A stretch of DNA of 44,174 nucleotides from positions 1 through 44,174 of the forward strand of contig PHBQ01000015.1 in assembly GCA_002841975.1 (NCBI GenBank), written 5' to 3'. The position numbers and the translations under genes were made by a program. Position 1 is the stretch's first letter. Each line of letters begins with the position of its first letter. The notes under the pieces are model-generated. The model made no database searches and was not told the DNA's origin. It saw nothing but the letters and a program-made list of their open reading frames with translations. This document shows, in pieces, positions 4,319 to 40,563 of this stretch. Origin of the DNA: Candidatus Cloacimonetes bacterium HGW-Cloacimonetes-1 (lineage in GTDB: Bacteria; Cloacimonadota; Cloacimonadia; Cloacimonadales; Cloacimonadaceae).

Positions 4319-4322
4319 TACG

Positions 4323-4766: not shown

Positions 4767-4814
4767 TCTTTGATGTTTTGTGAGAGCGTTTTGATTATCT
4801 TGCTTCAAGAGGCT

Positions 4815-4849: not shown

Positions 4850-4866
4850 TAGTGAGTTAGATCATT

Positions 4867-4886
4867 CTCAATCCTATGTGATTGAG
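4867..4886 (+). promoter_or_regulatory. inverted repeat upstream of rsfS
   Basis: A perfect 7-bp inverted repeat, CTCAATC (4867-4873) and GATTGAG (4880-4886), with a 6-base loop, 40 bases before the rsfS start. It could be an operator or a second leader hairpin. No T-run follows. Confidence 0.3.
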
Positions 4887-4926
4887 CCATGTAATAAAAC
4901 TATATTAAATAGACCGGGAGGATATC

Positions 4927-18681: not shown

Positions 18682-21402
18682 ATGAACAGGCTTTCTATAG
18701 TCATTATTTTATTGGTATTTTGGTGTGTATCATTCCCTGCACAAACAGTTTATGAATGGTCAAAAGGAGCAGGCGGGAGATATACCGACAGTGGGAAGTG
18801 CATAGCAACTGACAGCCAGGGTAATACCTTTGTGGCAGGAACTTTTGCCGGTACTATAACCTTGGGTACGACAACTCTTACATGCAATAGTACTACCTTT
18901 ACAGACATATTCATCGCAAAAATGGATTCCAATGGAAGCTTGTTGTGGGCAGTAAAAGCTGGTGGATCTTACCTTGATACAGTAAATTCCATGGCAACTG
19001 ATCGGCAAGGTGACTGTATAATTACAGGCACATTTCAGACTTCTGCGAATTTTGGTTCCACTACATTAATCTCCAGTGGTGGAGCTTTGGACGTTTTCGT
19101 GGCAAAGTTGAGTGCAACTGGCACCTGGATGTGGTCCCAAAAAACTACCGGTTCAGCCGTGATTTCAGGGTTTGGACTCGCAACAGACATCAATAGCAAT
19201 ATCTATGTATGTGGCAATTTCAAAGGCAATTCAAACTTTGGACCCTATACCATCATCAGTAACACTAGTTCTTATGACCTTTTTGTAGCAAAGATGAGTG
19301 CCGGTGGTGAATGGTTATGGGCAAAACAGACGGGTGGATCTGGGGATGATACAGCCTTTGGAATCGCAAGTGATGACTCTGGTAACTGCTATGTAACGGG
19401 TAACTTTAGAAACTCTGTCAATTTCGGCTCAACATTACTAAATGCAAGTGGTTTTGATATATTTATTGGCAAGATGGACAGCTACGGAAACTGGTTGTGG
19501 GCCAAGAAAGCCGGTGGCTCGAGTAATGATTATGGGTATTCTATCGCGATCGACCAACAGGGTTCATGTTTTGTAACAGGCTACTACAAGGGAACCGCGC
19601 AATTTGGATCGGTCACACTTCCTGCAGATGCAGGAACCAACAATGAGGTATTTGTAGCAAAACTGAGTTCCACCGGTGTATGGTCTTGGGCCAAACGAGC
19701 CGGGGGCAGTCTTTCCGATACAGGTAACGGCATAGTTGTCGACAATATCGGCAATTGTTATGTAATCGGATCATTTGCCGGAACAGCCACTTTTGAAACT
19801 AACTCTATACAAAGTAATGGAGGTAGTGATATCTTCATAGCGTACTGGGACACAAATGGGAAACTGTTGACCCTTAGTAAGATAGGTGGCAGTGGTGAAG
19901 ATGTGGGCAACGGCATAGCTATAGATCTCCAGAACAATTACCATCTTACAGGTTCGTTTTCAGGAACTATTACACTGGGATCTATTCAATTGGAAAGCAA
20001 TGGAAGCAGTGATGCTTTTGTAGCTAAAATCAACCCCTCTACCATAATCGTTCCTACAATGATCTATGCAAATACTCCCACAGCCGTCCAAAACTTTATA
20101 GTCAATTCTACACAGGCATTGACTGTTGTGCCTGCTATAAACAATTCAAATGCCATTGTTACAAGTCTGACGAATTTCTCCCGATTTACAAATTTCAGGA
20201 CAATGGGATTCAATGGTAGCGGACTTATAGATGTAAGTTTCACACTCCCAACAGGCCTTTGGTTTGGAGCTGTTTACTACCAAGGAACTTGGCACTGCTC
20301 TGTGCCGGAATATGCATACAATTCCGGATTACTGACATTTCCGGGAGTGGATTTTGGAGCCTCACAGAATGTTACATTTGTCCTTTCAGAAGGTGTTCAT
20401 CCCCTATCACCCGGTACTATTGTGGTATATCAGGATATACCCACTGAAGTCCGCAATGTAGTGATAACTTCTTCGAAGACAATTGTTACAAACCCCTCAA
20501 TAGACTTTACAAATGAGATTGTATCAAGATTACCAAACTATAGCAGTTTAGTAGATCCATTAGTATTGGGCTTTAGCGGTAGTGGAGTTTCAGATATCCA
20601 AATAGAAATGGGTCCCGGCTTGTGGTATGGAACAATTTACTACAATCATAATTGGTTTTTACCGGATCCCCCATACTTGTTAGGTTTTGGTGGAGTGTTC
20701 ACTTTTCCACAGGTGGATTTTAGTGCTAAAGGAACTATCATCATAGTTCTCTCCGACGGAGTTGATATGGGACAGACCTTACCGGTGGAGCTTTCTTCTT
20801 TCACAGCAATATCACACTTTGCCGAATTCAACACTATTGCTTGGGTTACAGAATCTGAATTGGATGTACTGGGCTTTAACGTTCTACGGAGTGAGATAGC
20901 TGACTTGAAATCCGCAATTAAACTAAATATATCTTTACTCCAGGCCGGATCAATCATCGGCGCACAATCGAGATACACTTTCAAAGACAATCAAATTGAT
21001 AACAACACTCGCTACTACTATTGGCTGGAGAGTGTTGAGATGAATGGCGTATCACATTTCACAAATCCAGTATCTATACTCGTAGAGCAGGCAACGGTCG
21101 AACCCGGAGTTCCTCAAATCCCCATTACCACAAAGCTGTTGAAGGCATATCCGAACCCCTTTAATCCACAGACCTGTATCAGTTACAGTCTTGCGGAAGC
21201 AGGTAGTGTAACTCTGGAAATTTTCAATACCAAGGGACAGTTGATACGTACGTTTGCCAAAACTCACAACAGTGGTGGTTACTTTGAGATCTCATGGGAT
21301 GGAACAGACAAATCTGGACAGCCCGTTAGCAGCGGCGTATATCTCTATCGCATGAGTTCCGGTAAATATAGTGCTTCATCTAAGGTGATGCTGGTAAAAT
21401 AG
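18682..21402 (+). CDS. secreted SBBP beta-propeller protein with C-terminal sorting domain
   Basis: A 906-residue exported protein. The start is ATG 18682 (MNRLSIVIILLVFWC), preceded by AAGGAG; the open frame extends 23 codons further without a site. The signal peptide covers about residues 1-21. About eight imperfect ~50-residue SBBP-type repeats follow (pattern AGG...D...I..D..GN.YV.G.F..T..FG...L.S.G..D.F.AK...NG.W.WA). Two ~120-residue units then repeat each other (beginning IYANTPTAVQNF and VYQDIPTEVRNV). Next comes a VELSSFTA... module usual in secreted proteins of the FCB group. It ends in a FlgD-Ig/type IX-like sorting domain: LLKAYPNPFNPQT...SGQPVSSGVYLYRM. It is probably cell-surface or secreted, with binding partner unknown. 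Confidence 0.88.
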   Translation: MNRLSIVIILLVFWCVSFPAQTVYEWSKGAGGRYTDSGKCIATDSQGNTFVAGTFAGTITLGTTTLTCNSTTFTDIFIAKMDSNGSLLWAVKAGGSYLDTVNSMATDRQGDCIITGTFQTSANFGSTTLISSGGALDVFVAKLSATGTWMWSQKTTGSAVISGFGLATDINSNIYVCGNFKGNSNFGPYTIISNTSSYDLFVAKMSAGGEWLWAKQTGGSGDDTAFGIASDDSGNCYVTGNFRNSVNFGSTLLNASGFDIFIGKMDSYGNWLWAKKAGGSSNDYGYSIAIDQQGSCFVTGYYKGTAQFGSVTLPADAGTNNEVFVAKLSSTGVWSWAKRAGGSLSDTGNGIVVDNIGNCYVIGSFAGTATFETNSIQSNGGSDIFIAYWDTNGKLLTLSKIGGSGEDVGNGIAIDLQNNYHLTGSFSGTITLGSIQLESNGSSDAFVAKINPSTIIVPTMIYANTPTAVQNFIVNSTQALTVVPAINNSNAIVTSLTNFSRFTNFRTMGFNGSGLIDVSFTLPTGLWFGAVYYQGTWHCSVPEYAYNSGLLTFPGVDFGASQNVTFVLSEGVHPLSPGTIVVYQDIPTEVRNVVITSSKTIVTNPSIDFTNEIVSRLPNYSSLVDPLVLGFSGSGVSDIQIEMGPGLWYGTIYYNHNWFLPDPPYLLGFGGVFTFPQVDFSAKGTIIIVLSDGVDMGQTLPVELSSFTAISHFAEFNTIAWVTESELDVLGFNVLRSEIADLKSAIKLNISLLQAGSIIGAQSRYTFKDNQIDNNTRYYYWLESVEMNGVSHFTNPVSILVEQATVEPGVPQIPITTKLLKAYPNPFNPQTCISYSLAEAGSVTLEIFNTKGQLIRTFAKTHNSGGYFEISWDGTDKSGQPVSSGVYLYRMSSGKYSASSKVMLVK

Positions 21403-26258: not shown

Positions 26259-27482
26259 ATGCTTGATCTTGAACCGGTAGAATTGCCACACAAAATCCTG
26301 ATGGTAAATTCAAACAGGGGTTTTGTAGGTGGTGTTGAGCGCTTTATGGTCCAAATGGCCTCAATTTTGAGAGGACAGAACTGGGAGATTTACGGTCTGT
26401 TTGAACAAACTGCATTCCAGCATCCGGAGTTTGACAAGGCATTTGACGATTTTGAAGTTCTGGACTACCTGGAGCTTGAAGATTTGATCGAAGACTACAT
26501 CGACATGGGCATAGAATTGGTTTGTTTCCATAAAGTAACAAAATGGCAGTGGGTCAAGCAGTTACAGAGCAAATTTGTCAATGTCGTTATCGTTCATGAT
26601 CATGACTATTATTGCCTGCGCAGACACAAGTATTTTCCTTTTCGCAGGATAAACTGTTCATTGCCATTTTCGACCATATATTGTCCCATGTGTGCCGGAA
26701 TGCTCGAAAAGAGAGAGCAATCCTTCAAACTAATCGATGTCGAGCAGAAATACCTTACTCTGAAGCATATCCGTGAATGCAATATCAGCTTTGTCTTATC
26801 CGATTTTATGAAAGATAACCTGCTGATGAATAAATGGCAAACCTCCAAAATTCATAAGCTGATCCCTGCGCAAATCCCCTATAATGGATTGCAATCAAAT
26901 GAAAGATCTTCAATCCCAGTGATTCTATATGTCGGGCAATTGATAAGAGGTAAAGGCGTAGATTTGTTGTTAAAATCACTAGCCTTAATAAATACCCCTT
27001 TCAAGTGTATTATCTTGGGCAGAGGCAATGACCAAAAATATCTCGAAGGACTGGCAGATAAGCTGAACCTCAATTCCCGAGTAGAGTTTAGAGAATGGAC
27101 GAATGCTGTTTCAGCGGTTTACCAAGAGTCAGATTTGTTGGTCGTGCCATCACGCTGGCAAGAGCCATACGGCCTGATCGGGTTGGAAGCCTTTGCACAC
27201 AAATTACCTGTGATTGCCTTTGACATCGGTGGGATATCAGAATGGTTGAGCCATAATGCCAACGGAATCTTGGTTAAACCTAAAGATATCAAGCGGCTTG
27301 CAGCTGCCATAAGAGCTTTGCTTAGCGACAAATCTAGACGGCTTAAGCTGGGGAATTACGGCTTTGAAGAAGTACGTGCCGAGCATTCAGCGGAATCATT
27401 TTATCGGTCTTTTATCTCACCCTTAGCTACATATCTATCATTTATCAGCAAAGGTGAAATCACCATCAATGAACATGAGTGA
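26259..27482 (+). CDS. GT4-family glycosyltransferase
   Basis: A 407-residue GT-B enzyme starting directly after the previous stop. The acceptor domain has VNSNRGFVGGVERFMVQ and a cysteine-containing segment (HDHDYYCLRRHKYF...CSLPF...CPMC) typical of a GT4 subgroup with HDYxxxCPR and clustered cysteines. The donor domain has ILYVGQLIRGKGVDLLL, ILGRGND, VVPSRWQEPYGLIGLEAFA (E-x7-E region) and PVIAFDIGGISEWL. It probably adds one sugar to the repeat unit; donor and linkage cannot be read. Confidence 0.9.
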   Translation: MLDLEPVELPHKILMVNSNRGFVGGVERFMVQMASILRGQNWEIYGLFEQTAFQHPEFDKAFDDFEVLDYLELEDLIEDYIDMGIELVCFHKVTKWQWVKQLQSKFVNVVIVHDHDYYCLRRHKYFPFRRINCSLPFSTIYCPMCAGMLEKREQSFKLIDVEQKYLTLKHIRECNISFVLSDFMKDNLLMNKWQTSKIHKLIPAQIPYNGLQSNERSSIPVILYVGQLIRGKGVDLLLKSLALINTPFKCIILGRGNDQKYLEGLADKLNLNSRVEFREWTNAVSAVYQESDLLVVPSRWQEPYGLIGLEAFAHKLPVIAFDIGGISEWLSHNANGILVKPKDIKRLAAAIRALLSDKSRRLKLGNYGFEEVRAEHSAESFYRSFISPLATYLSFISKGEITINEHE

Positions 27483-28740
27483 CAAATATTCGGTTAAAAC
27501 CGGAAGTTTCATATCAGAACTGTTTACCAGATTTATCGATTTGATTCTTTCAATTCTGCTGACTGTATTCGTCAGCTTGCCTGTACTCATATGTTTTACT
27601 TTAAGAAAGATCCTTCTCGGAACTTCAGTTTTTACTTCAGTCGAGGTTTTGGATAGGAGAACTGAGCCCGTGAAATACCTGTTATTCAATTCTAGAAACT
27701 GGTTAGTTTCACACTCATTGCTCTTTCCAAAAGTGATTACGGGTAGACTAAAAATGGTGGGCGTGAGTTTGCATCATGTCACAGGTGAAGAATTAAATGC
27801 TCTTGATAGATTTGTTGTATCTCATACTGCAGGAATATTCAGTTTATTTTTTGTCCGAAGTGGGACCAGGATCGCATTTGTAGGGCAATCTGAGTTGGAT
27901 CTCGAGTACTTGAACTCTCGGAGCATTGGTAAGCATATCAAGATTTTAGTCAAAGCTATCCCGGCGATCCTTTTGTATAGTCCGACAGTAAATGATAGCG
28001 ATCACTTCAATTTGTTTGGTGTTACCCTACTGAACATTAGCATGAAGGATGCAGTCGAATTGATCGACTTAAAAATTACAAACAAGATCAAGACTAGTGC
28101 TTTCTTTGTTAATGCTGACTGCCTTAATAAGATTTTTGTTGACACAGAATATTATCAGATTTTAAGAGAGAGTAAGGTAATTTTTCCCGATGGCATAGGT
28201 ATAAACATCGCACTTCGCATGACTGGAGGTGCTTTGAAAGAGAATGTAAACGGAACCGATATGCTACCCTATCTCTGTGAGAAGTGTGTTGCAAAGAAAT
28301 ACCGGATTTTCCTCTTGGGGGCCGCTCCTGGTGTTGCTGAAGACATGAAGACGCATCTGGTAGGGAAATATCCGGAGTTGAATATTTGTGGTGTGCAAGA
28401 TGGTTATTTTGACTGGGAGTCAGAAAGTACCACTGTGATAGATATAATAAATAATGCTCGAGCAGACTTGCTGTTAGTGGCATTTGGTGCGCCTTTGCAG
28501 GAGAAGTTTATAAATCGTTTTATCGAGAGCTTGAATGCTCCGGTACTGATGGGTGTAGGAGGCTTGTTTGACTTTTATAGTGGCCGCATCCCACGCGCTC
28601 CTTACTGGATGCGGGAAATTGGTTGTGAGTGGGTTTTTCGTTTGATCATGGAACCCAAACGTATGTGGAAAAGATACATTATCGGGAATCCCCTATTTTT
28701 GTATCGAGTTTCTCGCTGGAAGAAATCCCAGCCGAGATAG
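27469..28740 (+). CDS. WecG/TagA/CpsF-type glycosyltransferase fused to a degenerate priming-transferase domain
   Basis: A 423-residue protein from ATG 27469 (ATG 27475 or GTG 27454 are also possible). Residues about 180-423 are a GT26 (WecG/TagA) domain: FPDGIGINIALRMTGG, NGTDMLPYL, LLGAAPGVAED, LLVAFGAPLQEKFI, GVGGLFDFYSG...RAPYWMREIGCEWVFRL. Such enzymes usually add the second sugar to a lipid-linked sugar. Residues 1-175 have an N-terminal membrane helix pair and then segments that align with the neighbouring WcaJ-like protein, GRLKMVGVSL against GDMSLVGPRP and SELDLEYLNS against QLDMQYIRS, but lack the Asp-Glu dyad. This half is probably a non-catalytic membrane platform. Overlaps the upstream gene by 14 bp. 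Confidence 0.85.
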   Translation: MNMSDKYSVKTGSFISELFTRFIDLILSILLTVFVSLPVLICFTLRKILLGTSVFTSVEVLDRRTEPVKYLLFNSRNWLVSHSLLFPKVITGRLKMVGVSLHHVTGEELNALDRFVVSHTAGIFSLFFVRSGTRIAFVGQSELDLEYLNSRSIGKHIKILVKAIPAILLYSPTVNDSDHFNLFGVTLLNISMKDAVELIDLKITNKIKTSAFFVNADCLNKIFVDTEYYQILRESKVIFPDGIGINIALRMTGGALKENVNGTDMLPYLCEKCVAKKYRIFLLGAAPGVAEDMKTHLVGKYPELNICGVQDGYFDWESESTTVIDIINNARADLLLVAFGAPLQEKFINRFIESLNAPVLMGVGGLFDFYSGRIPRAPYWMREIGCEWVFRLIMEPKRMWKRYIIGNPLFLYRVSRWKKSQPR

Positions 28741-28765: not shown

Positions 28766-29497
28766 GTGCAAAAGTTGAAGCGTTCGTATAAACAAGACAA
28801 GAACAAGGAAATAGAGCGTTTAATGCTGCTTGGAAAGAAGCGCAGTAAGTTTCATATCCAATTGAAGATGTCCCTTTGGGAGTGGACTGTCGGTTTCGCT
28901 AAGTTTCTCAAATTCTTTATTGATGGTGGCATATCATTGGTGATGCTGGTTGTGCTTTCACCCATTTTTGTTATTACTGGATTGATAATATATATCACCG
29001 ATCCCGGTCCCTTGTTTTATATAGCCCCCAGAGTAGGACTGGACGGAAAAACATTTGGCTTTATCAAGTTCAGATCAATGTTCGTAAATGCCGACAAAAT
29101 GAAAGACGCTTTGATCGAAGAGAATGAGTCTGCGGATGGAGTTATCTTCAAAATGAAGAACGATCCCCGTGTCACTAAAATTGGCAGGATTATTCGAAGA
29201 TTCAGCATCGATGAATTACCGCAGTTAATCAATGTGCTCAAAGGCGACATGAGCTTAGTAGGTCCACGCCCCCCCCTCCCCCGAGAAGTACAGGAATATA
29301 CTTTGGAAGACAGAAAACGTCTCCATGTCAAGCCCGGCATCACTTGTCTTTGGCAGATCAAAGGAAGAAGTGAGATACCATTTCAACAGCAAGTTCAGCT
29401 GGATATGCAGTACATCCGAAGCCAAAATGTGTGGCAAGATCTGCTGATATTACTCAAGACAATACCCGCTGTAATTGGCGGTAAAGGCGCATATTAA
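28766..29497 (+). CDS. WcaJ/WbaP/PglC-like priming sugar-phosphate transferase
   Basis: A 243-residue bacterial sugar transferase (polyprenyl-phosphate sugar-1-phosphate transferase). It loads the first sugar on undecaprenyl phosphate and so starts repeat-unit synthesis at the cytoplasmic membrane. One hydrophobic membrane segment is at about 48-77. The catalytic Asp-Glu dyad is D149-E150 in SIDELPQL, followed by NVLKGDMSLVGPRPP and PGITCLWQIKGRSE. It is shorter than E. coli WcaJ (about 464) because it lacks the N-terminal domain, making it PglC-like in size. The start is GTG 28766, with only a weak ribosome site. Confidence 0.9.
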   Translation: MQKLKRSYKQDKNKEIERLMLLGKKRSKFHIQLKMSLWEWTVGFAKFLKFFIDGGISLVMLVVLSPIFVITGLIIYITDPGPLFYIAPRVGLDGKTFGFIKFRSMFVNADKMKDALIEENESADGVIFKMKNDPRVTKIGRIIRRFSIDELPQLINVLKGDMSLVGPRPPLPREVQEYTLEDRKRLHVKPGITCLWQIKGRSEIPFQQQVQLDMQYIRSQNVWQDLLILLKTIPAVIGGKGAY

Positions 29498-29533: not shown

Positions 29534-29875
29534 ATGGAACTGAACTTTGTAAATCAAAACAACATTGGTGTCCTGCATATAGTTGGACGTTTGGACGCAT
29601 ATAATTCATCAGAATTGAAGAGTTACTTCGATCAAATCTCATTAGAAACCACAAATCATGTTTTTGAAATGGGTGGATGTGAATTTATCGATAGTACAGG
29701 GCTGGGCACCATTGTAGCATGTTTGAAGGCAGCTTCTCAAAATGGTGGAGACATACGGCTGGCTAATCTTCAGGATAAACCACGTATGGTTTTTGACATC
29801 ACCAGAGCCTATAAAATATTCCATATATTTGATGATATTGACGCTGCATTAATGAGTTTCGATTCAGATTTTTGA
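29534..29875 (+). CDS. STAS-domain anti-sigma-factor antagonist
   Basis: A 113-residue single STAS domain. The phospho-accepting serine lies in CEFIDSTGLG, the hallmark of SpoIIAA/RsbV-type proteins, which switch partners according to phosphorylation. It has its own good ribosome site (AGGAG before ATG 29534). No anti-sigma kinase or phosphatase is beside it. Its place inside the polysaccharide operon suggests control of synthesis or export through an unlinked partner-switch system. Confidence 0.9.
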   Translation: MELNFVNQNNIGVLHIVGRLDAYNSSELKSYFDQISLETTNHVFEMGGCEFIDSTGLGTIVACLKAASQNGGDIRLANLQDKPRMVFDITRAYKIFHIFDDIDAALMSFDSDF

Positions 29876-29912: not shown

Positions 29913-31304
29913 ATGCGCTGTTTGATCTATGCCAAGAGTATCGACTCCACATGGGTTAAAGATTGCTTTCCGGAGGTTGACAGATATCTCTTGAAACTGG
30001 TCAACAAGCCATTATTGGAGTACTATTTAGACTTTGCGGCAATACTCAAAATCTCGAGTATTCGAATAGTCTCGGATACTTCAATCAAGGAGATTGAAAA
30101 CCATTTTAAAGATGGTGCAAAATGGGGGTTAGATATATCATACTCTCTTGCTAGACCTGAAGATAGCTTAAAAAGTGTCTACCTCAAAAACATGTCTTTT
30201 TGTCGAGAAGAAGACTTGATAATCTTGGATGGCTTCTTTTTCATCGACTATGATCACAACAATCTCATCTCCTACTTTGAGGAGTCAAAGATAATCTCTT
30301 GCAATGATATCAATAGACACTTAATCTACCTCTCTAAAGATACGCCTTTCAATGAGATTCCTCAACTCATTTGCTACTATGACCAGTCTATTTCTGTACG
30401 TGAGATTTCTTCCGTCCTAGACTACTACAAGTTGTCGATGGAGATTTTAACAAGGAAAAACAAGTCCTACGTTTTACCTGGGTATTCTAACGAAGAAGAC
30501 GCTTTTTACGGGGTAAATTTCATATTTCCCCATACTTCACAAGTGACAAAACCGCTTATGATTGGAAACAATGTAAGATTTAGAAACAATACGAGTGTAG
30601 GACCTGCTGCGATTATCGGTAACAATGTTATCATAGATGCAAATACAACCATTACCGAGAGTATTGTTTATGAGGATACCTACGTCAGCAGCGATTTGGA
30701 ATTAAGTGGAAAAATCATTTATAAGAATCGTTTAATCTCCGGATTGACAGGTGATTCCATATTGTTGACAGACAATATCCTAGTGTCTCAAATTGAGATG
30801 GGAATTATGACATCCTTTTTTAACAGGTTTGTGCAATGGATGATATCGTTGTTCTTGGTTATGGTGTTATTGCTTCCCTGGTTGATCTTGTACTTACCAT
30901 ATCGGCTGTTGAAAGGTAAGCCGGTCAGTGATTTCATCATCAACAAAAATTTGGCAATAAAATCCTATCTAGATCCTGAGAAAATGAAGAAATCTTCTTG
31001 GGGCAGATTCTTGCTCCACTTACAGCTGGACAAGTTTGGGCTTTTGTTGCTTGTATTAAGTGCTCGTATACTATTAGTGGGAAATCAAGTCTTCCGAAAT
31101 AATACACGGAATAGGAAGCTTATCAACGATCTACCTGTATACACACCAGGAGTTTATTCACTCTTTGAGAGTGTAGATGCAGAACACGGTAATGTCGAGA
31201 TCTTTTATGAACTGGAGTACATCAATAACTGCTCTACGATATACAACTTAAATATCTTAATGCGCGTAATATGGAAGAGGTTCTGCCATGGATACAAAAA
31301 ATAA
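29913..31304 (+). CDS. sugar-nucleotidyltransferase-like/beta-helix protein fused to a degenerate sugar-transferase domain
   Basis: A 463-residue protein of unusual layout. Residues 1 to about 200 look like a divergent NTP-transferase (sugar-1-phosphate nucleotidyltransferase) fold: LVNKPLLEYYLDFAA echoes the usual 'KP.L..IL' segment, but the N-terminal G-x-G-T-R loop is not evident. About 213-260 are hexapeptide beta-helix rungs (MIGNNVRFRNNTSVG, IIGNNVIIDANTTI). From about 300, two membrane segments and a sugar-transferase-like part follow. There QLDKFGLLLLVL...LLVG (371-390) aligns without gaps to SIDELPQLINVL...LVG of the WcaJ-like protein, with D373-K374 where the catalytic D-E should be, and TPGVYSLFE aligns with PGITCLWQ. 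Both ends may be non-catalytic. Confidence 0.7.
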   Translation: MRCLIYAKSIDSTWVKDCFPEVDRYLLKLVNKPLLEYYLDFAAILKISSIRIVSDTSIKEIENHFKDGAKWGLDISYSLARPEDSLKSVYLKNMSFCREEDLIILDGFFFIDYDHNNLISYFEESKIISCNDINRHLIYLSKDTPFNEIPQLICYYDQSISVREISSVLDYYKLSMEILTRKNKSYVLPGYSNEEDAFYGVNFIFPHTSQVTKPLMIGNNVRFRNNTSVGPAAIIGNNVIIDANTTITESIVYEDTYVSSDLELSGKIIYKNRLISGLTGDSILLTDNILVSQIEMGIMTSFFNRFVQWMISLFLVMVLLLPWLILYLPYRLLKGKPVSDFIINKNLAIKSYLDPEKMKKSSWGRFLLHLQLDKFGLLLLVLSARILLVGNQVFRNNTRNRKLINDLPVYTPGVYSLFESVDAEHGNVEIFYELEYINNCSTIYNLNILMRVIWKRFCHGYKK

Positions 31305-31923
31305 CGTTCGGTTGATCCTGATTGGCGGTGGTACTTGCTCTGGGAAGACAACAATAGCCAAGGCTATTGGGCGAAGATTGAGTGATTTGAAGACTGTGAT
31401 TATCTCACACGACAACTACTATAAGGACCTGAGCTACATGGATCCCGAAGAGGCAAATTTAGTTAACTTTGATCACCCGGATGCCATCGATACCGAATAT
31501 CTCCTGAAGGACCTCAAAGAGATGTTACATGGAAGCGCTGTAAACGTTCCTGATTACGACTTTATTAGTCATTCGCGGTCAGAGGGAAACCTCTGCATCG
31601 CATTTGCTGATGTTATCATTCTTGAGGGAATATTTGCTTTGTATTATCCTGAATTGATAGAGCTGGCCGATCTCAAGATATTTGTCGATACGGATGCGGA
31701 CTTGAGATTGACCAGAAGAATTGTACGAGATATCAAAGAAAGAGGATTCAATATAGAATCGGTACTTGACCAGTACATGGAAACTGTGAAACCTTCACAT
31801 ATCGCTTTTATTGAACCTACGAAAAAGAATGCGGATCTTATAATTCCCGGTGAGAAAGAATTTGATAATGTTCTGTATATGCTGAACGGCTTCTTACTGT
31901 ACGAACTGGTTAGGAAAAAATAG
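31288..31923 (+). CDS. uridine-kinase-like P-loop kinase
   Basis: A 211-residue protein of the uridine kinase/phosphoribulokinase family. The Walker A is GGGTCSGKTT (about residues 13-22), followed by ISHDNYYKDL (substrate Asp/Tyr region), NFDHPDAID, VNVPDYDF, IILEGIFAL and DLRLTRRIVRDIKERG. It overlaps the previous gene by 17 bp and the next by 1 bp. A housekeeping Udk would not be expected inside a polysaccharide operon, so it may phosphorylate a sugar, polyol or nucleoside used as a building block. That is inference. Confidence 0.85.
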   Translation: MDTKNNVRLILIGGGTCSGKTTIAKAIGRRLSDLKTVIISHDNYYKDLSYMDPEEANLVNFDHPDAIDTEYLLKDLKEMLHGSAVNVPDYDFISHSRSEGNLCIAFADVIILEGIFALYYPELIELADLKIFVDTDADLRLTRRIVRDIKERGFNIESVLDQYMETVKPSHIAFIEPTKKNADLIIPGEKEFDNVLYMLNGFLLYELVRKK

Positions 31924-33062
31924 TGTCAAAATACTCTCTGTATGGATCTGAGCTTATTGACTCTAAAATTGATCACATCCTGTGTGTCGTTCGGCAAGAG
32001 TTCCTCAAAGTTTTCCCGATCGAGGAACTGAAAGCACTCGTCTTGGGGGGTGGTTATGGTCGCGGAGAAGGCGGCGTCAGATTTGAGGGAGATGATGAAT
32101 TCCCATACAACGATTTAGACTTTTTTGTGATCTCCCGGGATATTCCCCTTTACAAAAAACTCAAGTACCAAAAAGCACTTGCAGAATTGCATTATAAATT
32201 GACTGATCAACTTGGAATCGACATTGATTTTTCTCCCATTCAATCACTTCGAGCCCTGCCCCAAGCACCATTTTGGTTGGTTTGGTATGAGCTGAGATAC
32301 GGACACCGGATTGTAATAGGCAATACCCATATTCTGAACTATTTGCCGAGATGGGAAGACGATAGTGTTCCTCTTATTGAGGCAGTTAAATTACTGCTAA
32401 ATCGGGGTGTAGGGCTTTGGAAAGCTAAACAAGTAATTTCGGAAGACACCGGCACAGGAGATCTGGATTTCGTAATGCGAAACATCCACAAAGCCATCCA
32501 GGCTATCGGAGATAGCATATTGATCTCACGTCATCAATATCATTGGTCAAATATAAAGAGAATGGAACGAGCCCAGACCACGTTTAAGGAGCTTCCTTTT
32601 CTTCATAATGAGTTTACAGCCCAGTATATCAATTCCATGGAGTTTAAGCTTCAGCCGCAGTACTCTGATCTGTCTGCCGGAGAGATGCTAACAATAATTG
32701 AAAACTTAATACCTACTTTCATTGATGCATATTACTACATATGGGCTTGCATGGTAAGCCGGAATTCGATCGGTCCAGAAAACTATTACCGTGAAATTCA
32801 AGCATACTTTACAAACAATCTTCTCGAGAAGGATGTGCTGAAGAACTTGGTTTTGAATATCAAAGAATTCAAATTTAGTGCCTATTCACATGAATTGTAT
32901 TGCCAATATCCCCGCTACAGATTAATTTGTACATTCCCATGGTTTTTATGGAACGAAGAGTTAGTTCACACGGATATAGATAAGTGTCTATCGCTTTCAT
33001 ATGGTAGTACTCAAGATTTGAGGTATAATCGCTTTATCGAGCTGTGGGAAAAGTATAATTAG
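31923..33062 (+). CDS. pol-beta-type nucleotidyltransferase of unknown substrate
   Basis: A 379-residue protein. Near residues 40-70, LGGGYGRGEGG and, after a short insert, NDLDFFV fit the nucleotidyltransferase-fold pattern hG[G/S]...DhD. A second acidic patch, GIDIDFSPI (about 98-106), supplies a third carboxylate. The remaining ~270 residues are helical and not recognised. The start is GTG 31923, overlapping the kinase stop by one base, so the two are closely coupled. Possible roles are nucleotidyl transfer to a phosphorylated small molecule or to a protein; the substrate is unknown. Confidence 0.7.
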   Translation: MSKYSLYGSELIDSKIDHILCVVRQEFLKVFPIEELKALVLGGGYGRGEGGVRFEGDDEFPYNDLDFFVISRDIPLYKKLKYQKALAELHYKLTDQLGIDIDFSPIQSLRALPQAPFWLVWYELRYGHRIVIGNTHILNYLPRWEDDSVPLIEAVKLLLNRGVGLWKAKQVISEDTGTGDLDFVMRNIHKAIQAIGDSILISRHQYHWSNIKRMERAQTTFKELPFLHNEFTAQYINSMEFKLQPQYSDLSAGEMLTIIENLIPTFIDAYYYIWACMVSRNSIGPENYYREIQAYFTNNLLEKDVLKNLVLNIKEFKFSAYSHELYCQYPRYRLICTFPWFLWNEELVHTDIDKCLSLSYGSTQDLRYNRFIELWEKYN

Positions 33063-34208
33063 GTGAGTATGAAGAAATTGGCCATGTATGTTTTTATTGA
33101 CGCATTGGGTTGGGAGATATTCGAGAAGTATGGTTTCTTGCAATCGATCGCCCCACATAGTCGTAAATTGGAGACCACTTTTGGGTTTTCTTCGGCTGCA
33201 GATCCGTCGATTTTAACAGGCAGATATCCAGATGAACATACTCATTGGTCAAGTTTCATATACGACCCCAAATATTCCCCCTTCAAGGCTTTGCGCTATT
33301 TTGCGTTTTTACCGCCTCAAATATTCGACAGGTGGAGAGTTCGGCACAACCTGAGTAAAGTAATCAAACGAGCTTATAAATATACAGGTTATTTTCAGCT
33401 TTACAGTGTTCCTTTCAAATTCCTTCCATACTTTGATTACCTCGAGAAGCGAGATTACTTTGTTCCCAACGGGATATTGAAAACTGACACAATCTTTGAC
33501 TGGTGCGTAAAATCACAGATTCCACATTATTGCTCAAACTGGCGTCATACTGAAGAGCAGATCCTGATTGAAAACAAAAAAGCAATCAGTGAAGCCCAGG
33601 CAAAACTGATATATGTATATTTGCCAAAGCTAGACGCCGTGATGCACGAACACGGTCCATTTTCCACTCAGACCGAGGAAAAGCTTCACTGGTTGGAGCA
33701 GCAGATAACCTCATTGTTCGATTATGCGAACAGGATATACGATGACGTGAGTTTGTATGTAATCTCAGATCATGGGATGGCTCCCGTCACAGGTACCTAT
33801 GATTTAATGAAAGAAATCAATCAAATGGGATATGAGTACGGGAAAGATTATGCCGCATTTTATGACTCTACAATGGCAAGATTTTGGTTCTTTAACGATG
33901 ATGCCAAAGCGAAGATCATGAGTCATTTGAAAACATTAGCCTGTGGCAGTATTATCCCGGAACAAGAGCTCATGGAAATGCACGTTTGGTTCCCACACAA
34001 CAAGTTTGGAGACGTCTATTTCCTGATGAATGAAGGACTATTGATAAACCCTAGTTTCATGGGTAAAAAACCGGTAAGTGGTATGCATGGCTATCATCCC
34101 AAAGCCGCTCATTCCTATTCGATAATGCTATCGAATCGGCAAATTCCGGAATCTATTTCTTCTATAACAGATATTAGAAAAACTATGGAGTATGAACTTG
34201 CTAAATGA
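33063..34208 (+). CDS. alkaline-phosphatase-superfamily phosphodiesterase/phosphotransferase
   Basis: A 381-residue protein resembling type I phosphodiesterase/nucleotide pyrophosphatases. Metal-site and nucleophile segments are visible: FIDALGW (Asp), SSAADPSILTGRYPDEHTH (Ser/Thr nucleophile region), KLDAVMHEHGP (Asp and His), VISDHGM (Asp-His) and SGMHGYHP (His). No signal peptide or membrane helix is obvious, so it seems cytoplasmic. It begins immediately after the nucleotidyltransferase gene (GTG 33063; ATG 33069 possible). It may hydrolyse a nucleotide-linked intermediate made by its two upstream neighbours, or transfer a phospho-group to the glycan. Confidence 0.82.
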   Translation: MSMKKLAMYVFIDALGWEIFEKYGFLQSIAPHSRKLETTFGFSSAADPSILTGRYPDEHTHWSSFIYDPKYSPFKALRYFAFLPPQIFDRWRVRHNLSKVIKRAYKYTGYFQLYSVPFKFLPYFDYLEKRDYFVPNGILKTDTIFDWCVKSQIPHYCSNWRHTEEQILIENKKAISEAQAKLIYVYLPKLDAVMHEHGPFSTQTEEKLHWLEQQITSLFDYANRIYDDVSLYVISDHGMAPVTGTYDLMKEINQMGYEYGKDYAAFYDSTMARFWFFNDDAKAKIMSHLKTLACGSIIPEQELMEMHVWFPHNKFGDVYFLMNEGLLINPSFMGKKPVSGMHGYHPKAAHSYSIMLSNRQIPESISSITDIRKTMEYELAK

Positions 34209-36201
34209 ACCGAGATCATTAGACACCTCCGAAAGTACTGAGAATTCAGGGCTGAAGCTTGATCGACAAATACTGAGTATTGTTTATAAAAAACGTTTGA
34301 AGTACATAGTCGCTTTTACTCTGATATCGATGATTATTGCCGGAGTATGGGCAAAAGTACGTATTACACCAACATGGAAAGCGAACTGTTTTGTGATTCG
34401 AGCGCCAAAAAACATGTCCACTCCTGCCAATATGCCGTATTTGTATCAGACATTTGATTTGAACACGGTACTTGAGACTGTTCGCACGCGAGATGTTTTA
34501 GTCGACGTTATCAATAAACTCCGGTTACGATTGACTCCTGAAGACTTGTTCAAGGCCATCGAAGTACAAAGGGGAAACCGGTCTAATGTCCTAAAATTCT
34601 CAGTTGTATGGAACGACAGAGAGCTTGCAGCTCAGATCGCTAATGTGACCGCCGAATCATTTATCAACAACAACACAAAGCTCCAGAATTCTGCCACATT
34701 GAGCATCTACAATTACTATCTGCAACAGCAAAAAGATCGAATCAAGTTAATGCATGACCTCGAGCAACAATATGAGCAGTTTAGAGGTCAATACGGGATA
34801 ATATCTATACCCAATGAAAGCCAAACCAAGTTTGATCAGCTTAAAGCTATCGAACTAAAGATGATAGATAATAGCCTGCGTATTACCGAAATGGATACCA
34901 AAGTAACAGAGTTAGACAAGCAGATTGCATCCACACCTACAGAAGTCATCAGGAGTTGGACTTTTACAGAAACCGATGAGAAAAAGCTGATTCAGCTTCG
35001 GAAAGAGCTTGAGATTTTAAAAACCAAATATACCGACGACAATCCCAAAGTTCAGAAAGTCAAAAAAGAAATTCAAGATATTACTGCCAATTCTCAAAAA
35101 CAAACGGATCGCAAAGTTCCGGAATCTATCACTTGGGGACCCAGTGGCCTGATCGAAACTTATACTATCGACAAGACAAGGTACGAGACAGAGAAAAAAG
35201 CTAATCTTGAGATGAATCAAGAATATCAAATCAAAGTTAACAACATTCGCTCAGAGCTTGAGAATCTAACTCAAATTCAAAAAGAATTCGTGGAATTGGA
35301 TCGTCAAATTCAACTAAATCGTGATATTCTGAGAATCATTGAAGGCAGACTGTCTGAGGCAAAAATGGCCATGCAATCGAACGTGAGTGACTATGAGATT
35401 ATTGAGCCTGCAAAAACACCAAATTATCCAGAGGGAACAAAGAGGAAAATTCTAGTCGTAGCGGTTGGGATTATTGTCTTTTTCATGGGTAGTATCTTGG
35501 TGATCGGTAACGAAATATTAGATTTTTCTATTAAGTCAGACATGGATTTCAAAGATATCATCATGATCCCCATGATTGGTCAGTTGCCAGATGAAGATCA
35601 GTTTGACAAAAACGTATTCTTCCGAAATCTTCAGATTTTAGTCAATAACATAGTTCGCCTCTGCGGAGGAAAGAAAAAGCCCGTCATCTGCTTTGGCAGT
35701 GATATTCCTGAGACCGGAAAATCGTTCTTAGTGAACGATATCATGAAAATGCTGATTGGGAAAAAACAGAGAATTCTATACATCGATTCAATACATGCCC
35801 TCACTCCTGAAACTTCAGAGTATGCATTAAATGATTGGCTCTACAACGAAGATGCTCAGTATAAATTTGACACCACCGATCAGTATCTGCACCGCGGCTA
35901 TTTTTTGGCTGATGATTCTATTTTTACGTCGATACTTGATACTTCCAAGGTGACAAGTTTGTTTGAATCCCTAACTGATTATGATTATGTGTTCTGGGAA
36001 CTGTTTGATTGTCATTACAATGTCCAGCTATTTTCAAACATTGCATCCGCATCTGATATGCTAGTTTTGGTAGGCAGGTTTAAGAGAAGCAGTAGACATA
36101 TATTTGCCAACATAGTCCAGTTTATCAATGTCAGAAAGTTCAAAAACATCTACGGAGTATTAAATTATGTTCATAAAGACTATTTCCAAGAGAAGTACTA
36201 G
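34192..36201 (+). CDS. Wzz-type polysaccharide co-polymerase with degenerate tyrosine-kinase domain
   Basis: A 669-residue inner-membrane protein. Transmembrane helix 1 is at about 36-54, a periplasmic coiled-coil region spans about 150-405, and helix 2 is at about 418-440. This is the Wzz/GumC layout that sets chain length and contacts the exporter. The cytoplasmic C-terminal domain follows the BY-kinase plan but is altered. Walker A is G502-S-D-I-P-E-T-G-K510-S, Walker A' is reduced to LYIDSIHAL, and Walker B reads YDYVFWELFD where YDYVIIDTPP is usual. Only two or three tyrosines are at the C-terminus. It may bind nucleotide without kinase activity. It overlaps the previous gene by 17 bp. 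Confidence 0.86.
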   Translation: MNLLNEPRSLDTSESTENSGLKLDRQILSIVYKKRLKYIVAFTLISMIIAGVWAKVRITPTWKANCFVIRAPKNMSTPANMPYLYQTFDLNTVLETVRTRDVLVDVINKLRLRLTPEDLFKAIEVQRGNRSNVLKFSVVWNDRELAAQIANVTAESFINNNTKLQNSATLSIYNYYLQQQKDRIKLMHDLEQQYEQFRGQYGIISIPNESQTKFDQLKAIELKMIDNSLRITEMDTKVTELDKQIASTPTEVIRSWTFTETDEKKLIQLRKELEILKTKYTDDNPKVQKVKKEIQDITANSQKQTDRKVPESITWGPSGLIETYTIDKTRYETEKKANLEMNQEYQIKVNNIRSELENLTQIQKEFVELDRQIQLNRDILRIIEGRLSEAKMAMQSNVSDYEIIEPAKTPNYPEGTKRKILVVAVGIIVFFMGSILVIGNEILDFSIKSDMDFKDIIMIPMIGQLPDEDQFDKNVFFRNLQILVNNIVRLCGGKKKPVICFGSDIPETGKSFLVNDIMKMLIGKKQRILYIDSIHALTPETSEYALNDWLYNEDAQYKFDTTDQYLHRGYFLADDSIFTSILDTSKVTSLFESLTDYDYVFWELFDCHYNVQLFSNIASASDMLVLVGRFKRSSRHIFANIVQFINVRKFKNIYGVLNYVHKDYFQEKY

Positions 36202-36205
36202 TATC

Positions 36206-37261
36206 ATGCAAGCTCCTTTTAGAATACTCCTTGCATTGCTACTGATGCTATTGCTGATAAGCTGTTCTTCCAATAGACCTAAGCATTTCGTGGAAGCAAA
36301 TTCCGACGCTTTACCGGAATATCTTGAGGAAACATATCTTGCTACTCAGACTACTCAAGAGACCGTCGAAGAGCTGAAACGCTTAAATGAAATTGATTTG
36401 CCAACCTATAGACTGGGACCCGGTGACAAAATGAAAATCTACGTTTACGATGAGCCAGAGCTCGATACAGACGTAGTCATAGTAAAGCAAGACGGCACAA
36501 TATCTTTTCGTTTAGTGGGTGAAATTGATGTGACTGGATTGACCATTCCACAGGCAACAAAAGTAATAGAAGATAAACTTAAAGCCTATTTAGTCTATCC
36601 CAAGGTATCAATAATCCCGTTTGAGGCAAGAAGCTCGACTATTACGCTTTTGGGCAAAGTCACATACCCGGGAGTCCTGGAAATCAAAGGAAGAATGAGA
36701 ATTCTTGATGCTTTGGCTAGCGCTGGTGGATTAGCTCTGGGTTACTTTCAATCTAACTCTGTAGAATTAGCCGACTTAGAAAGAACTTTCATGATCCGGG
36801 ACGGCAAAATGCTCCCTATAGACTTTGTCGAATTGGTTCAGAAAGGGAACATCCTCTACAATATTCCTCTCATGGACAAAGACTACATATACTTGCCATC
36901 TGCCATCAATAGAGAGATCTATGTTATTGGAGAGGTCAATGCTCAAGGGCATTTTTTCTACCAGGAAAATATGACACTGCTACAAAGTATTTCATTCGCT
37001 CAAGGAACAAAGACGACAGCCCAATCGACCGTTTACGTTATTCGTGGAAACCTGAGCCATCCTCGTTTGTTTAAAATCAATACCAGAGATATTATGAAAG
37101 CCAAGGTACAAGATTTTCCGCTCAAACCCAACGATATCATTTATATTCCCAAGCACCCTATCGCAAAGTGGAACGATGTAGTAAATATGGCTCTCCCCAG
37201 CCTTCAGGCAGTCCAATCGGCATGGTTTTTAAATGATCTGATTCAAAACAACGGTAAATGA
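36206..37261 (+). CDS. Wza-like polysaccharide export outer-membrane lipoprotein
   Basis: A 351-residue lipoprotein. I chose ATG 36206 (MQAPFRILL) because it begins the leader directly; an in-frame ATG at 36167 would add 13 charged residues and overlap the co-polymerase. The lipobox is LLISC, with C20 of the chosen protein. The polysaccharide-export (Poly_export) domain is YRLGPGDKMKIYVYDEPEL...VKQDGTISFRLVGEIDVTGLT, followed by SLBB units (ITLLGKVTYPGVLEIKG; IYVIGEVNAQGHFFY). It forms the outer-membrane channel working with the Wzz-like protein upstream. Confidence 0.92.
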   Translation: MQAPFRILLALLLMLLLISCSSNRPKHFVEANSDALPEYLEETYLATQTTQETVEELKRLNEIDLPTYRLGPGDKMKIYVYDEPELDTDVVIVKQDGTISFRLVGEIDVTGLTIPQATKVIEDKLKAYLVYPKVSIIPFEARSSTITLLGKVTYPGVLEIKGRMRILDALASAGGLALGYFQSNSVELADLERTFMIRDGKMLPIDFVELVQKGNILYNIPLMDKDYIYLPSAINREIYVIGEVNAQGHFFYQENMTLLQSISFAQGTKTTAQSTVYVIRGNLSHPRLFKINTRDIMKAKVQDFPLKPNDIIYIPKHPIAKWNDVVNMALPSLQAVQSAWFLNDLIQNNGK

Positions 37262-37801: not shown

Positions 37802-39196
37802 ATGACAGAGACTCTCTCCGCTGCAAAATACATCGTTTTTTTTGTTACCTTATTGGTGGGGGTCCCTCTAGGTTTTACTCTATCGCTAAAATTCCCAAGA
37901 GTCGAAAAAGTGATTTTTTTCCTGATGATCTTTTTTACAGTGAAGATGGAAGATATCAATTTTGTATCAAGGGAAACCTTTCGGTTAACTTCCAAGGGAT
38001 TTGAAATTGGTTTGGTCGACATTGCTACCTTCATCATCTTTTTATTGGTACTCAATCGCAAAAAACGTTTCCCCCTTCAGGCACCACCAGGCACCTATAT
38101 TTACCTCACCTATTTGCTATTCAGTGGCATTTCTATAATAAATGCTGCTGTCCCTCTGTTTTCCATGTTTGAAGTTTGGAAAATGCTCCGCATGTATATG
38201 TACTTCTTTGTAGTTTTCAACTACGTTAATGATTTCGAGCAATTTCATGACTTCATGAAAGGCTGTGCGGCAATTATAATCTACATTTTCTATGAAGTAA
38301 TGAAACAAAAATACATCCTGGGTAAATTTCAAGCATCAGGACCTTTCCCCCATCAAAATTCACTTGTCATGTACACGATTATATTGGGATCAATAGTGTT
38401 TGCGTTTTTGATGAACAAGAAGGATCTCAAGCCACTGTATTTCTTTATTTGGTTAATGATTTTTGCGATGTCAGCTGTTATTGTAATATCCGCTTTATCG
38501 AGAGCTGGCTTAGTGCTCTTTGCTATAGCAGTTTTGATCGTTCTGACTGTGTCGTTTTTTGCCGGCATTACAGAAAAGAAAGTGTGGATTGCAGTTATTT
38601 TACTAATCTGCTCCATGGCAATGATGGCAAAGGCCTGGAATTCTATTCAAGAGCGCTTTAGGACAGCCCCGGAGGAATCTGCTACTACCAGAGTAGATCT
38701 GGCTATAGCAGCTCTGAAAATGGTTAAGGACGAGCCCTTAGGCATAGGTTTGAATAATTTTGGTATAAAGATAAACCCACCTTGGCAGTATAGCAGTCAC
38801 ATTGAAATGCATGATGCTGAGGATGAAGATGAGAAAAACGGACTTGTAGAGACTATTTACCTGATGATCGCTGCCGAATGTGGCTGGCATACCATGGTCA
38901 TCTATTTTCTTTTTATTTTTTACTTTTATTTCCTCAATCTCAAGAACTTCTTTCGTTACAAAGGTTCAGACTACCAGTACTTTACTATTGCCATGGTGGG
39001 CGGACTATTGGCAATATACGTTGAATCCGGTTTAGAATGGGTTTTAAAGCAAACAAATAACTATTATCAGTTAATGCTCATGTTCGCACTAATAGCTGTC
39101 ATGAGCAAGCTAGGAAATAGATATTCTCTTGCTAAGATCAGTTTGCCTGCAAATTTAACGCTTAAACAGCGACTACATACCATAAACGGACTGTAA
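37802..39196 (+). CDS. O-antigen polymerase/ligase-like membrane protein
   Basis: A 464-residue protein with about ten to eleven predicted transmembrane helices and one large periplasmic loop (about residues 285-355). The Wzy/WaaL family segments are SGPFPHQNSLVMY (G.F.H.N..A) and, after the loop, the preceding EPLGIGLNNFG (G.G...F). It most likely polymerises repeat units or ligates chains; the two activities cannot be told apart by eye. The start ATG 37802 lies seven bases after the acetyltransferase stop. Confidence 0.83.
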   Translation: MTETLSAAKYIVFFVTLLVGVPLGFTLSLKFPRVEKVIFFLMIFFTVKMEDINFVSRETFRLTSKGFEIGLVDIATFIIFLLVLNRKKRFPLQAPPGTYIYLTYLLFSGISIINAAVPLFSMFEVWKMLRMYMYFFVVFNYVNDFEQFHDFMKGCAAIIIYIFYEVMKQKYILGKFQASGPFPHQNSLVMYTIILGSIVFAFLMNKKDLKPLYFFIWLMIFAMSAVIVISALSRAGLVLFAIAVLIVLTVSFFAGITEKKVWIAVILLICSMAMMAKAWNSIQERFRTAPEESATTRVDLAIAALKMVKDEPLGIGLNNFGIKINPPWQYSSHIEMHDAEDEDEKNGLVETIYLMIAAECGWHTMVIYFLFIFYFYFLNLKNFFRYKGSDYQYFTIAMVGGLLAIYVESGLEWVLKQTNNYYQLMLMFALIAVMSKLGNRYSLAKISLPANLTLKQRLHTINGL

Positions 39197-39197
39197 T

Positions 39198-39602
39198 ATG
39201 AATGAGAATAAGACAGATAGAAAATCAATCGGAAACAAAGGCATTACCGAGAGCCTAAGTCATGAACAGCGTAAAGAGCTGATTGGTCTTATGAAGCGGA
39301 TGCTTCCTCCGGTTCCATCAAAGGGGATCATCGATATTCGATTCGCCTTTTGGTTTTTTCAAAACTGGTACATCGTCCTTATATTTGGAAAGGATACCAG
39401 AAAGCAGTTTAAAGCCCTTGATAAAGGAGACATGGATAGGAGCTTAACCACAGTTGCAAAAATATTCACATATCTCTTTATGCTTGTATCCTTGCTGATT
39501 GTGTTTTTGATATTGCTTTACTTCCTCAAATCAGCTGTCGGTATTGATTTGTTTCCGGATACTCACTTCCCGGATATGTTAAGAAAACTCTTTAGGAAAT
39601 GA
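39198..39602 (+). CDS. small membrane protein of unknown function
   Basis: A 134-residue protein. It has a charged N-terminus (about 1-45), an aromatic stretch FAFWFFQNWYIVLIFG (about 50-65) that may insert in the membrane, and one clear transmembrane helix at about 90-112. KLFRK ends it. No family is recognised. It is tightly spaced (1 base) between the polymerase and the GT8-like gene, so it is part of the polysaccharide operon and may help assemble the membrane complex. Confidence 0.7.
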   Translation: MNENKTDRKSIGNKGITESLSHEQRKELIGLMKRMLPPVPSKGIIDIRFAFWFFQNWYIVLIFGKDTRKQFKALDKGDMDRSLTTVAKIFTYLFMLVSLLIVFLILLYFLKSAVGIDLFPDTHFPDMLRKLFRK

Positions 39603-39603
39603 T

Positions 39604-40563
39604 ATGAGTGATTGCGATAATGTCACTATTGTAACAGCATGCGATCACCGATACGTGTGGGGAGCCATGCTCCTGGGATTGTCTCTTCGTTATTCCCAAA
39701 CTAAATGTCGGTTTCATGTCTTAGGATATGATTTGACTGCAGAGGACATCAAGTGTTTAGAGAGTATCGCCGATACCAAAGTGTTTCCGCTGGATCTATC
39801 TACTACCAGAAGCATGTGCACTCAAAAGCCGTTAGCAATAAACACAGCTACTACAGATCGAATTGTCTGGATGGATTCTGATTGTATTGTAACCGGTAAT
39901 GTCGACAAGTACTTGATCGCCAGTGAAGGTAAGATGCAAATCCGCTTTAGAGGGAAAACAGAGAACGCAAGTGTGTATCGAAACATCTACCATAAAAGTG
40001 ACAAATATGGTGCTATTCCCCAAAGTGTTCTGAAGATTTGGCAACATGATGTGGCAGATTTAACTGAACCTAAAATCTCATCAGTATGCCAGACAAATTG
40101 CTTTGTTATCACAAAGGAGCATATTCCTTTCATCCAATTGTGGCATCGCCAAATGAATCAAGTGCTGCCATCTGATGCTTCTGGAGTGTATCTTTCAGAT
40201 AATTTGGGCTATTCTATGACAGACGAATCCGTGATTAATTCTCTCTTTGCCTACTCATCTATTGCTCCACAGACTACAGAATATCTAATGGACCAGGATC
40301 CAAACGCTTACTGTGCGCATTTTGGGTTGCAACCCAAACCATGGAAACATTGGACTCAACAGTCATTTGTCTATTATGAGTACGTTCAGGCATTACTAAG
40401 CTGGGCAAATACTCACGACATCGTCCTCCCCACTTTGCCGACATCATTTCTCCGGGTAAACCGCAGCTATGAATTACTTCGCTCTCAGTGTGTTTACTAC
40501 TATCGGGCTTTTCGCCACACTGCATCAAATATCTGCCGGCTCATTTTGAGGTTTTGGAGATAA
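39604..40563 (+). CDS. GT8-like glycosyltransferase
   Basis: A 319-residue protein with a GT-A fold plan. It has TIVTACDHRYVWGAMLLGLSLR at the N-terminus (in parts TIVTACD and LGLSLR) and a DxD metal motif in IVWMDSDCIVTG (about residue 96-98). An acceptor-side segment TNCFVITKEH and an SMTDESVIN stretch follow. This suggests a GT8-like or related retaining sugar transferase using a nucleotide sugar. The C-terminal ~40 residues are basic and aromatic, perhaps membrane-associating. Sugar unknown. Confidence 0.78.
   Translation: MSDCDNVTIVTACDHRYVWGAMLLGLSLRYSQTKCRFHVLGYDLTAEDIKCLESIADTKVFPLDLSTTRSMCTQKPLAINTATTDRIVWMDSDCIVTGNVDKYLIASEGKMQIRFRGKTENASVYRNIYHKSDKYGAIPQSVLKIWQHDVADLTEPKISSVCQTNCFVITKEHIPFIQLWHRQMNQVLPSDASGVYLSDNLGYSMTDESVINSLFAYSSIAPQTTEYLMDQDPNAYCAHFGLQPKPWKHWTQQSFVYYEYVQALLSWANTHDIVLPTLPTSFLRVNRSYELLRSQCVYYYRAFRHTASNICRLILRFWR

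Follow-up and report, generated by a model that had tools for sequence, protein, structure and literature searches.

The stretch of DNA analysed here (the window) is 44,174 nucleotides of contig PHBQ01000015.1 from Candidatus Cloacimonetes bacterium HGW-Cloacimonetes-1, whose genome is 2.78 Mb. Within a polysaccharide operon on its + strand lie three consecutive genes, encoding a protein of the uridine/cytidine kinase family (UDK, 31288-31923, 211 amino acids (aa)), a nucleotidyltransferase (NTASE, 31923-33062, 379 aa) and an ENPP-like phosphodiesterase without a leader, a member of the alkaline phosphatase superfamily (PDE, 33063-34208, start probably at 33069, 381 aa for the full open reading frame). 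An earlier note on this DNA had described the three as joined by a one-base overlap or no gap, and we confirmed the coordinates, the strand and the motifs that it gave: the TAG stop of UDK (31921-31923) shares one base with the GTG start of NTASE at 31923, and the TAG stop of NTASE (33060-33062) abuts the GTG of the PDE frame at 33063. At the outer ends, the 5' end of UDK overlaps the upstream gene for a 463-aa protein by 17 bases, and the 3' end of PDE overlaps a downstream Wzc-like gene by the same length. Because orthologues recur in the same operon slot of related genomes, the arrangement is more than chance. The pairing of NTASE with PDE, which form the core of this group, is well supported across phyla, and UDK is an optional third member.

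The sequence of NTASE matches PF01909 weakly, with 18.6 bits against a cut-off of 21, and this family is listed, even at an expectation value (E) of 0.1, for 7 of 51 aligned relatives (picked from 77 listed, leaving out overlong open reading frames and some near-duplicates). A scan against NCBIfam gave no match and, on these three results, the family is effectively uncurated. Its assignment to the nucleotidyltransferases, made in the earlier note, is supported by a fold model and by three acidic residues. The AlphaFold2 model (pLDDT 94.1, pTM 0.92) predicts an NTase fold with an AadA-like helical second domain, and a Foldseek search with it ranked aminoglycoside nucleotidyltransferases (ANTs) first, albeit weakly (E 1.6e-3). 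Comparison by VIA, which took in the chains ranked by Foldseek, so that the absence of LicD and FKRP from it is uninformative, gave Z 13.1 for AAD(9) (6xxq; 213 aligned residues, root-mean-square deviation (rmsd) 3.5) and Z 12.5-13.0 for AadA and ANT-3,9. The best seven rows cover 213-229 residues at rmsd 3.5-4.6 and 9-11% identity, and the packing of the helical second domain against the NTase domain is shared as well. Since a Z below about 13 may reflect only an arrangement common in helical bundles, the kinship with AadA rests on fold and motifs. A profile of the 51 sequences had no match among PDB chains up to E 1, AadA-type enzymes included, and a single-protein scan of genome contigs gave no match. 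The one terpene synthase found by a sequence search of the PDB with NTASE (E 0.011) was taken as a chance match.

Passages of PMC6965139 give the motifs of the NTase fold as hG[GS], [DE]h[DE]h and h[DE]h, and the window protein has all three as LGGG (residues 41-44), D64-L-D66-F and I101-D102-F103. The first belongs to the motif GGYGRGEGG (residues 43-51, 32049-32075, + strand), a putative hGG nucleotide-binding turn whose pattern occurs once in the whole genome. The candidate metal-binding acids D64-x-D66 (32112-32120, + strand) are conserved as Asp at 64 in 49 of the 51 sequences and as Asp or Glu at 66 in all of them; the third acid and candidate catalytic base, D102 (32226-32228, + strand), is likewise Asp or Glu in 51/51. 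In AadA, two reports (PMC6065190, PMC4631478) describe three catalytic acids with Glu-87 as the base. The catalytic carboxylates, whose absence would have refuted the idea of the earlier note, are present in a model with pLDDT 94, and mostly conserved as acids. Positions 66 and 102 carry Asp in 26 sequences and Glu in 25, switching together in every sequence; this paired substitution suggests a working two-metal site, although it also tracks a lineage split. Further invariant in the family are GGYGR-EGG, N63, N160-R161 and K190. With all three acids in place, we rejected the possibility that the window protein is inactive. We also rejected an apparent fusion of a glycosyltransferase (GT) with NTASE in locus L251, whose N-terminal extension is, by eye, an out-of-frame read-through, and a defence system, PADLOC giving no hit for NTASE or PDE and weak P-loop hits only for UDK.

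PDE matches PF01663 with 59.7 bits (cut-off 23), in agreement with the superfamily named in the earlier note. Its AlphaFold2 model (pLDDT 88.2) aligned by VIA with ENPP6 (5ege) at Z 28.9 and rmsd 3.0 over 317 residues, ENPP6 being tied with other ENPPs (Z 27.6-28.9 overall, about 15% identity). Residues D13, S43 (or S44), D191, H195, D236, H237 and H342 are found in 25/25 aligned sequences (picked from 28 listed, again without overlong frames and some near-duplicates), and we take them, from known motifs and not from superposed coordinates, to be the two-metal ligands and the Ser nucleophile of NPP enzymes. Most homologues start at the ATG that is the third codon of the window frame, and 33069 is therefore the likelier start. 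The first metal ligand is already residue 13, which by eye leaves no room for a signal peptide; PDE is presumably cytosolic, in a departure from NPP/ENPP enzymes, which are usually secreted or membrane-anchored.

The kinase-like P-loop protein of the earlier note proved to score 229.3 bits against the TIGR00235 equivalog (cut-off 220.3), and phmmer aligned it with the Thermus and human uridine-cytidine kinases at E 1e-51 to 1e-40. Across 16 aligned sequences taken from NTASE loci, no variation occurs in the presumed P-loop or in the presumed nucleoside-site residues D42, Y45, F61, D62, Y90, H95, R144, R147, R152 and Q162. Where the Thermus kinase 3asy has Tyr93, at a position that governs uridine acceptance, the window protein and human UCK2 both have a His. 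The family score and the invariant residues mark UDK as a canonical pyrimidine nucleoside kinase, and on this evidence, together with the alignment to the Thermus and human kinases, we rejected a kinase for a non-nucleoside. UDK is the sole Udk over the cut-off in the window genome; compared with other Udks, it falls among those of the window's family and is separate from those of other families.

We then followed the three genes through 124 genomes of Cloacimonadota. NTASE was found in 23 and PDE (E < 1e-10) in 24, with both in 21, about a sixth of the sample; each genome was counted once, including G042, where NTASE is a C-terminal piece at a contig end, G051, where it is in two pieces, and G067, where PDE is present only as a fragment at a contig end. 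In the window's family PDE directly follows NTASE in 10/10 NTASE-bearing genomes, and in other Cloacimonadota it has a different place in the locus or lies outside it. Only the window genome, G009, G050 and G051 have UDK in the slot ahead of NTASE and, of the 23 genomes of the phylum with NTASE, only the window genome and G009 show the adjacent trio UDK-NTASE-PDE. As this block was not seen across the 23 genomes and the other loci, we rejected the idea of the three genes as one indivisible system. In some loci the usual NTASE slot, beside PDE or Wzc, holds a GT4-type protein instead (L194:3844-4947, L195:11514-12554, L042:17703-18773, and probably L196).

An NTASE alignment scan of bacterial genomes returned 335 encoding stretches, of which the best 80 were kept; these come from Cloacimonadota, Verrucomicrobiota, Lentisphaeria, Hydrogenedentota, Pirellulaceae, Delongbacteria and Gammaproteobacteria. 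A PDE homologue (> 50 bits) is encoded in 34 of the 80 stretches and UDK in 15, directly 5' of NTASE in eight (L054, L056, L061, L065, L067, L077, L083, L105) and one open reading frame away in L063 and L064. Among 30 genomes chosen by hand from behind these 80 loci, 26 encode PDE, all at E 1.2e-93 or better, and of the 25 among them whose fetched stretch lacks PDE, 21 encode it elsewhere.

The association holds in a second phylum. Of 240 Verrucomicrobiota genomes, 61 encode NTASE (E limit 1e-10), 61 encode PDE (E limit 1e-30) and 59, about a quarter, encode both; in G301 and G304, which have PDE but not NTASE, the match is partial. In 21 of the 59 the two genes are adjacent (< 400 bases apart, same strand), with NTASE first in 21/21; of the remaining pairs, 19 lie within 25 kb, 5 further apart and 14 on different contigs. 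Since Bac_transf, used as a marker of exopolysaccharide synthesis, is present in 221/240, the NTASE-PDE pairing is not a mere sign of polysaccharide genes. Udk is rare in this phylum (22/240) and occurs in 15 of the 61 genomes with NTASE as against 7 of the 179 without. In 18 chosen genomes, a second Udk scoring more than about 80 bits is absent from the 13 that carry one in the NTASE locus, and the 5 that do not carry it there have no match of more than about 22 bits. The co-occurrence expected by the earlier note therefore stands strongly for NTASE with PDE and more weakly for the kinase.

The adjacent pairs of L246, L247 and L248 have as neighbours two glycosyltransferases, one GT4-like and one GT2-like, and a response-regulator-like protein (by sequence and BLAST, not Pfam), and no Wza-, Wzy- or Wzc-like gene was recognised within 19-20 kb. 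Glycosyltransferases without these export-type neighbours tie the pair to glycan assembly rather than export. A limited literature search found nothing on the NTASE-PDE pair or the locus.

We tentatively favour the explanation that NTASE and PDE are a near-obligate cytosolic glycan-tailoring module, with UDK as an optional helper, whose enzymes act in series, a nucleotidyl transfer being followed by a phosphodiester step. The chemistry is an inference, and so are the sequence of the steps, the nucleotide used and the acceptor. NTASE would move a nucleotidyl group from a nucleoside triphosphate, plausibly that of uridine or cytidine, to a glycan building block, at a hydroxyl or a phosphate, in a two-metal reaction of the AadA type, and the Ser nucleophile of PDE would attack the resulting phosphodiester, either hydrolysing it so that the phosphate stays on the glycan precursor or passing the phospho-group to a second acceptor. 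If the nucleoside were the leaving group, UDK could salvage it by re-phosphorylation; such a recycling step would explain why a nucleoside kinase, and not a nucleotide kinase, recurs beside NTASE. Our reason for favouring nucleotidyl transfer before phosphodiester cleavage or transfer is that NTASE has a phosphodiesterase as its constant companion and a nucleoside kinase only now and then. The more specific version, a new phosphate route in which, in place of a kinase, the NTase nucleotidylates a sugar, PDE removes or swaps the nucleoside to leave a phospho-substituent and the nucleoside kinase of the operon recycles what is released, is unlikely. The proposal of the earlier note, a phospho-linked decoration made and attached by the trio, is thereby supported in part: a glycan-modifying role fits the neighbours, but the assignment of the steps is not supported. 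For its alternative, a quality-control cycle for an activated precursor, the results speak neither in favour nor against.

Several observations weigh against the series module. UDK is absent from most NTASE loci, and in L068, L070, L088 and L107 it lies in the locus apart from NTASE; among the 15 Verrucomicrobiota with both, the two are on different contigs in 7 and about 3 Mb apart in 1. PDE itself is unlinked to NTASE in several genomes. The 463-aa neighbour is encoded by 25/124 Cloacimonadota genomes, 22 of them among the 23 that carry NTASE, so that co-occurrence in this phylum is locus-wide. Related genomes, moreover, are not independent samples, and the Fisher values computed for these counts take no account of kinship and do not express a probability of function. 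One Cloacimonadota subclade, 8 of 21 sequences (L042-L049), has Asn at NTASE residue 64 with the other two acids kept, as does the Pirellulaceae sequence of L107, and these NTASE sequences may act differently. Lastly, ENPP-type enzymes that act on nucleotides release the nucleoside monophosphate, and with such a product the UDK step fails.

The same pair can be read as a writer and an eraser, NTASE nucleotidylating a protein or a lipid-linked intermediate so as to turn polymer synthesis off or on, and PDE reversing the mark. The build of NTASE, an NTase domain joined to a helical bundle, recalls not only AadA but also nucleotidylating enzymes of the GlnE and HEPN-MNT types; the near-constant company of an enzyme that would make phosphodiesters and one that would break them suits a reversible switch; and the loci hold other regulators (STAS proteins, a SpoIIE-type phosphatase, response regulators). 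A target protein is, however, not evident; the small-molecule-modifying AadA-type matches reach Z 13, higher than the 8.4-8.6 of glutamine synthetase adenylyltransferase, and the immediate neighbours are mostly glycosyltransferases and core genes of the locus. We consider such a switch unlikely; if it were real, polymer production would have a new point of control.

Co-carriage without a shared task, in which a large polysaccharide locus holds the genes of separate pathways and the kinase merely feeds the pool of uridine diphosphate-sugars, appears rather improbable. In Cloacimonadota the whole locus is the unit of inheritance and is passed on as a block, and genomes of the window's family usually have a closely similar Udk elsewhere, which fits this explanation; NTASE and PDE, however, stay together in Verrucomicrobiota, where the content of the locus is very different, even with no Wza- or Wzy-like gene near.

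About as doubtful is an enzyme of the FKRP/LicD kind, with NTASE moving polyol phosphate or choline phosphate from a cytidine diphosphate (CDP) donor to the glycan and PDE editing or recycling the product. The glycan setting suits it, and FKRP, although it transfers ribitol phosphate from CDP-ribitol, is built on an NTase fold that carries, as NTASE does, both the [DE]h[DE]h and the h[DE]h motif (PMC6965139). By sequence comparison, however, the LicD model (PF04991) matches 0/51 aligned NTASE members at E 0.1, and no gene for the synthesis of CDP-polyol or CDP-choline was recognised among the scanned operon proteins. The least probable is the classical activation route of the earlier note, in which the kinase phosphorylates a small molecule, NTASE converts it to a nucleoside-diphosphate form and the phospho-linked group is then placed on the glycan by PDE: alkaline phosphatase superfamily enzymes can be phosphotransferases and ENPP6, the top PDE match together with the tied ENPPs, handles choline phosphodiesters, but UDK is a predicted canonical uridine/cytidine kinase absent from most NTASE loci, which makes it unlikely to start the activation of a polyol or similar and leaves this route without a dedicated first-step enzyme.

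The proteins of the series module can be compared with known systems. NTASE shares with AadA/ANT(3'')(9) and AAD(9) the two-domain fold and three catalytic acids in matching motifs, and differs from them by its 9-11% identity, its own invariant residues, its glycan loci and its phosphodiesterase partner. PDE has the fold and metal-binding residues of ENPP/NPP enzymes (ENPP6, Xanthomonas NPP) but about 15% identity, no signal peptide and a tie to an NTase. UDK scores above the Udk/UCK equivalog cut-off, with the His of human UCK2, and stands out by its location beside NTASE. With LicABC/LicD and FKRP the locus would share kinase, nucleotidyl and phosphodiester chemistry on a glycan, judged here from the genes, and FKRP/LicD also has an NTase fold; the locus differs in having no LicD sequence match, no recognised choline or polyol kinase and an ENPP-like partner. 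A near-obligate pair with intact active-site residues, one of them an NTase without a curated family, suggests that the synthesis of bacterial surface glycans includes a step not yet studied; should the two act in series on a glycan precursor, polymers with phosphate would be made in a way that differs from the Lic and teichoic-acid routes. The pair is present in cultured species, Rubritalea marina DSM 17716 and Haloferula luteola carrying both genes, which makes these proposals directly testable.

Around the three genes, the + strand encodes in order two GT4-type proteins, a WecG/TagA/CpsF family glycosyltransferase (27454-28740; PF03808, 3.9e-60), a Bac_transf protein of the priming phosphoglycosyl transferase family (28766-29497; PF02397, 6.4e-64), a single STAS-domain protein (29534-29875; PF01740, 1.7e-18), which relatives have in the same slot, and the 463-aa protein (29913-31304), which travels with the locus. 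The latter has LbH repeats, a C-terminus like that of Bac_transf proteins and an N-terminus like that of sugar nucleotidyltransferases, in which the glycine-rich loop GxGTR usual in such enzymes was not seen by eye; it is possibly a non-catalytic or repurposed enzyme. Downstream of PDE follow a Wzc-like chain-length/kinase protein (34192-36201; GNVR/Wzz and TIGR03007 matches, both below the curated cut-offs), a Wza-like polysaccharide export protein (36167-37261; PF02563, SLBB), an EpsC-like gene, a Wzy-like gene of the Wzy_C (O-antigen ligase/polymerase) family (37802-39196; PF04932), two locus-conserved open reading frames without a Pfam family over the cut-off (39198-39602 and 39604-40563), a GT4 gene and the gene of a PEGA-OmpA protein.

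The position of the STAS protein between the Bac_transf and 463-aa genes recalls SypA in the Vibrio syp locus, in which we know of no NTASE, PDE or kinase of these kinds. In Vibrio fischeri, passages of PMC4517449 describe SypA as a single STAS protein of the syp polysaccharide locus, and the window likewise has a single STAS protein inside a polysaccharide locus. In Rubritalea, STAS is fused to an LbH protein, and a SpoIIE/HATPase protein and a response regulator are encoded next (L069:1916-3451, 3470-5571), an arrangement that suggests phosphorylation-controlled polymer synthesis. Elsewhere in the window, a 929-aa protein (18613-21402) has beta-propeller repeats and a type IX secretion tail, and just past the operon, on the opposite strand, 43100-44131 encodes a protein with a 5'-nucleotidase C-terminal domain.

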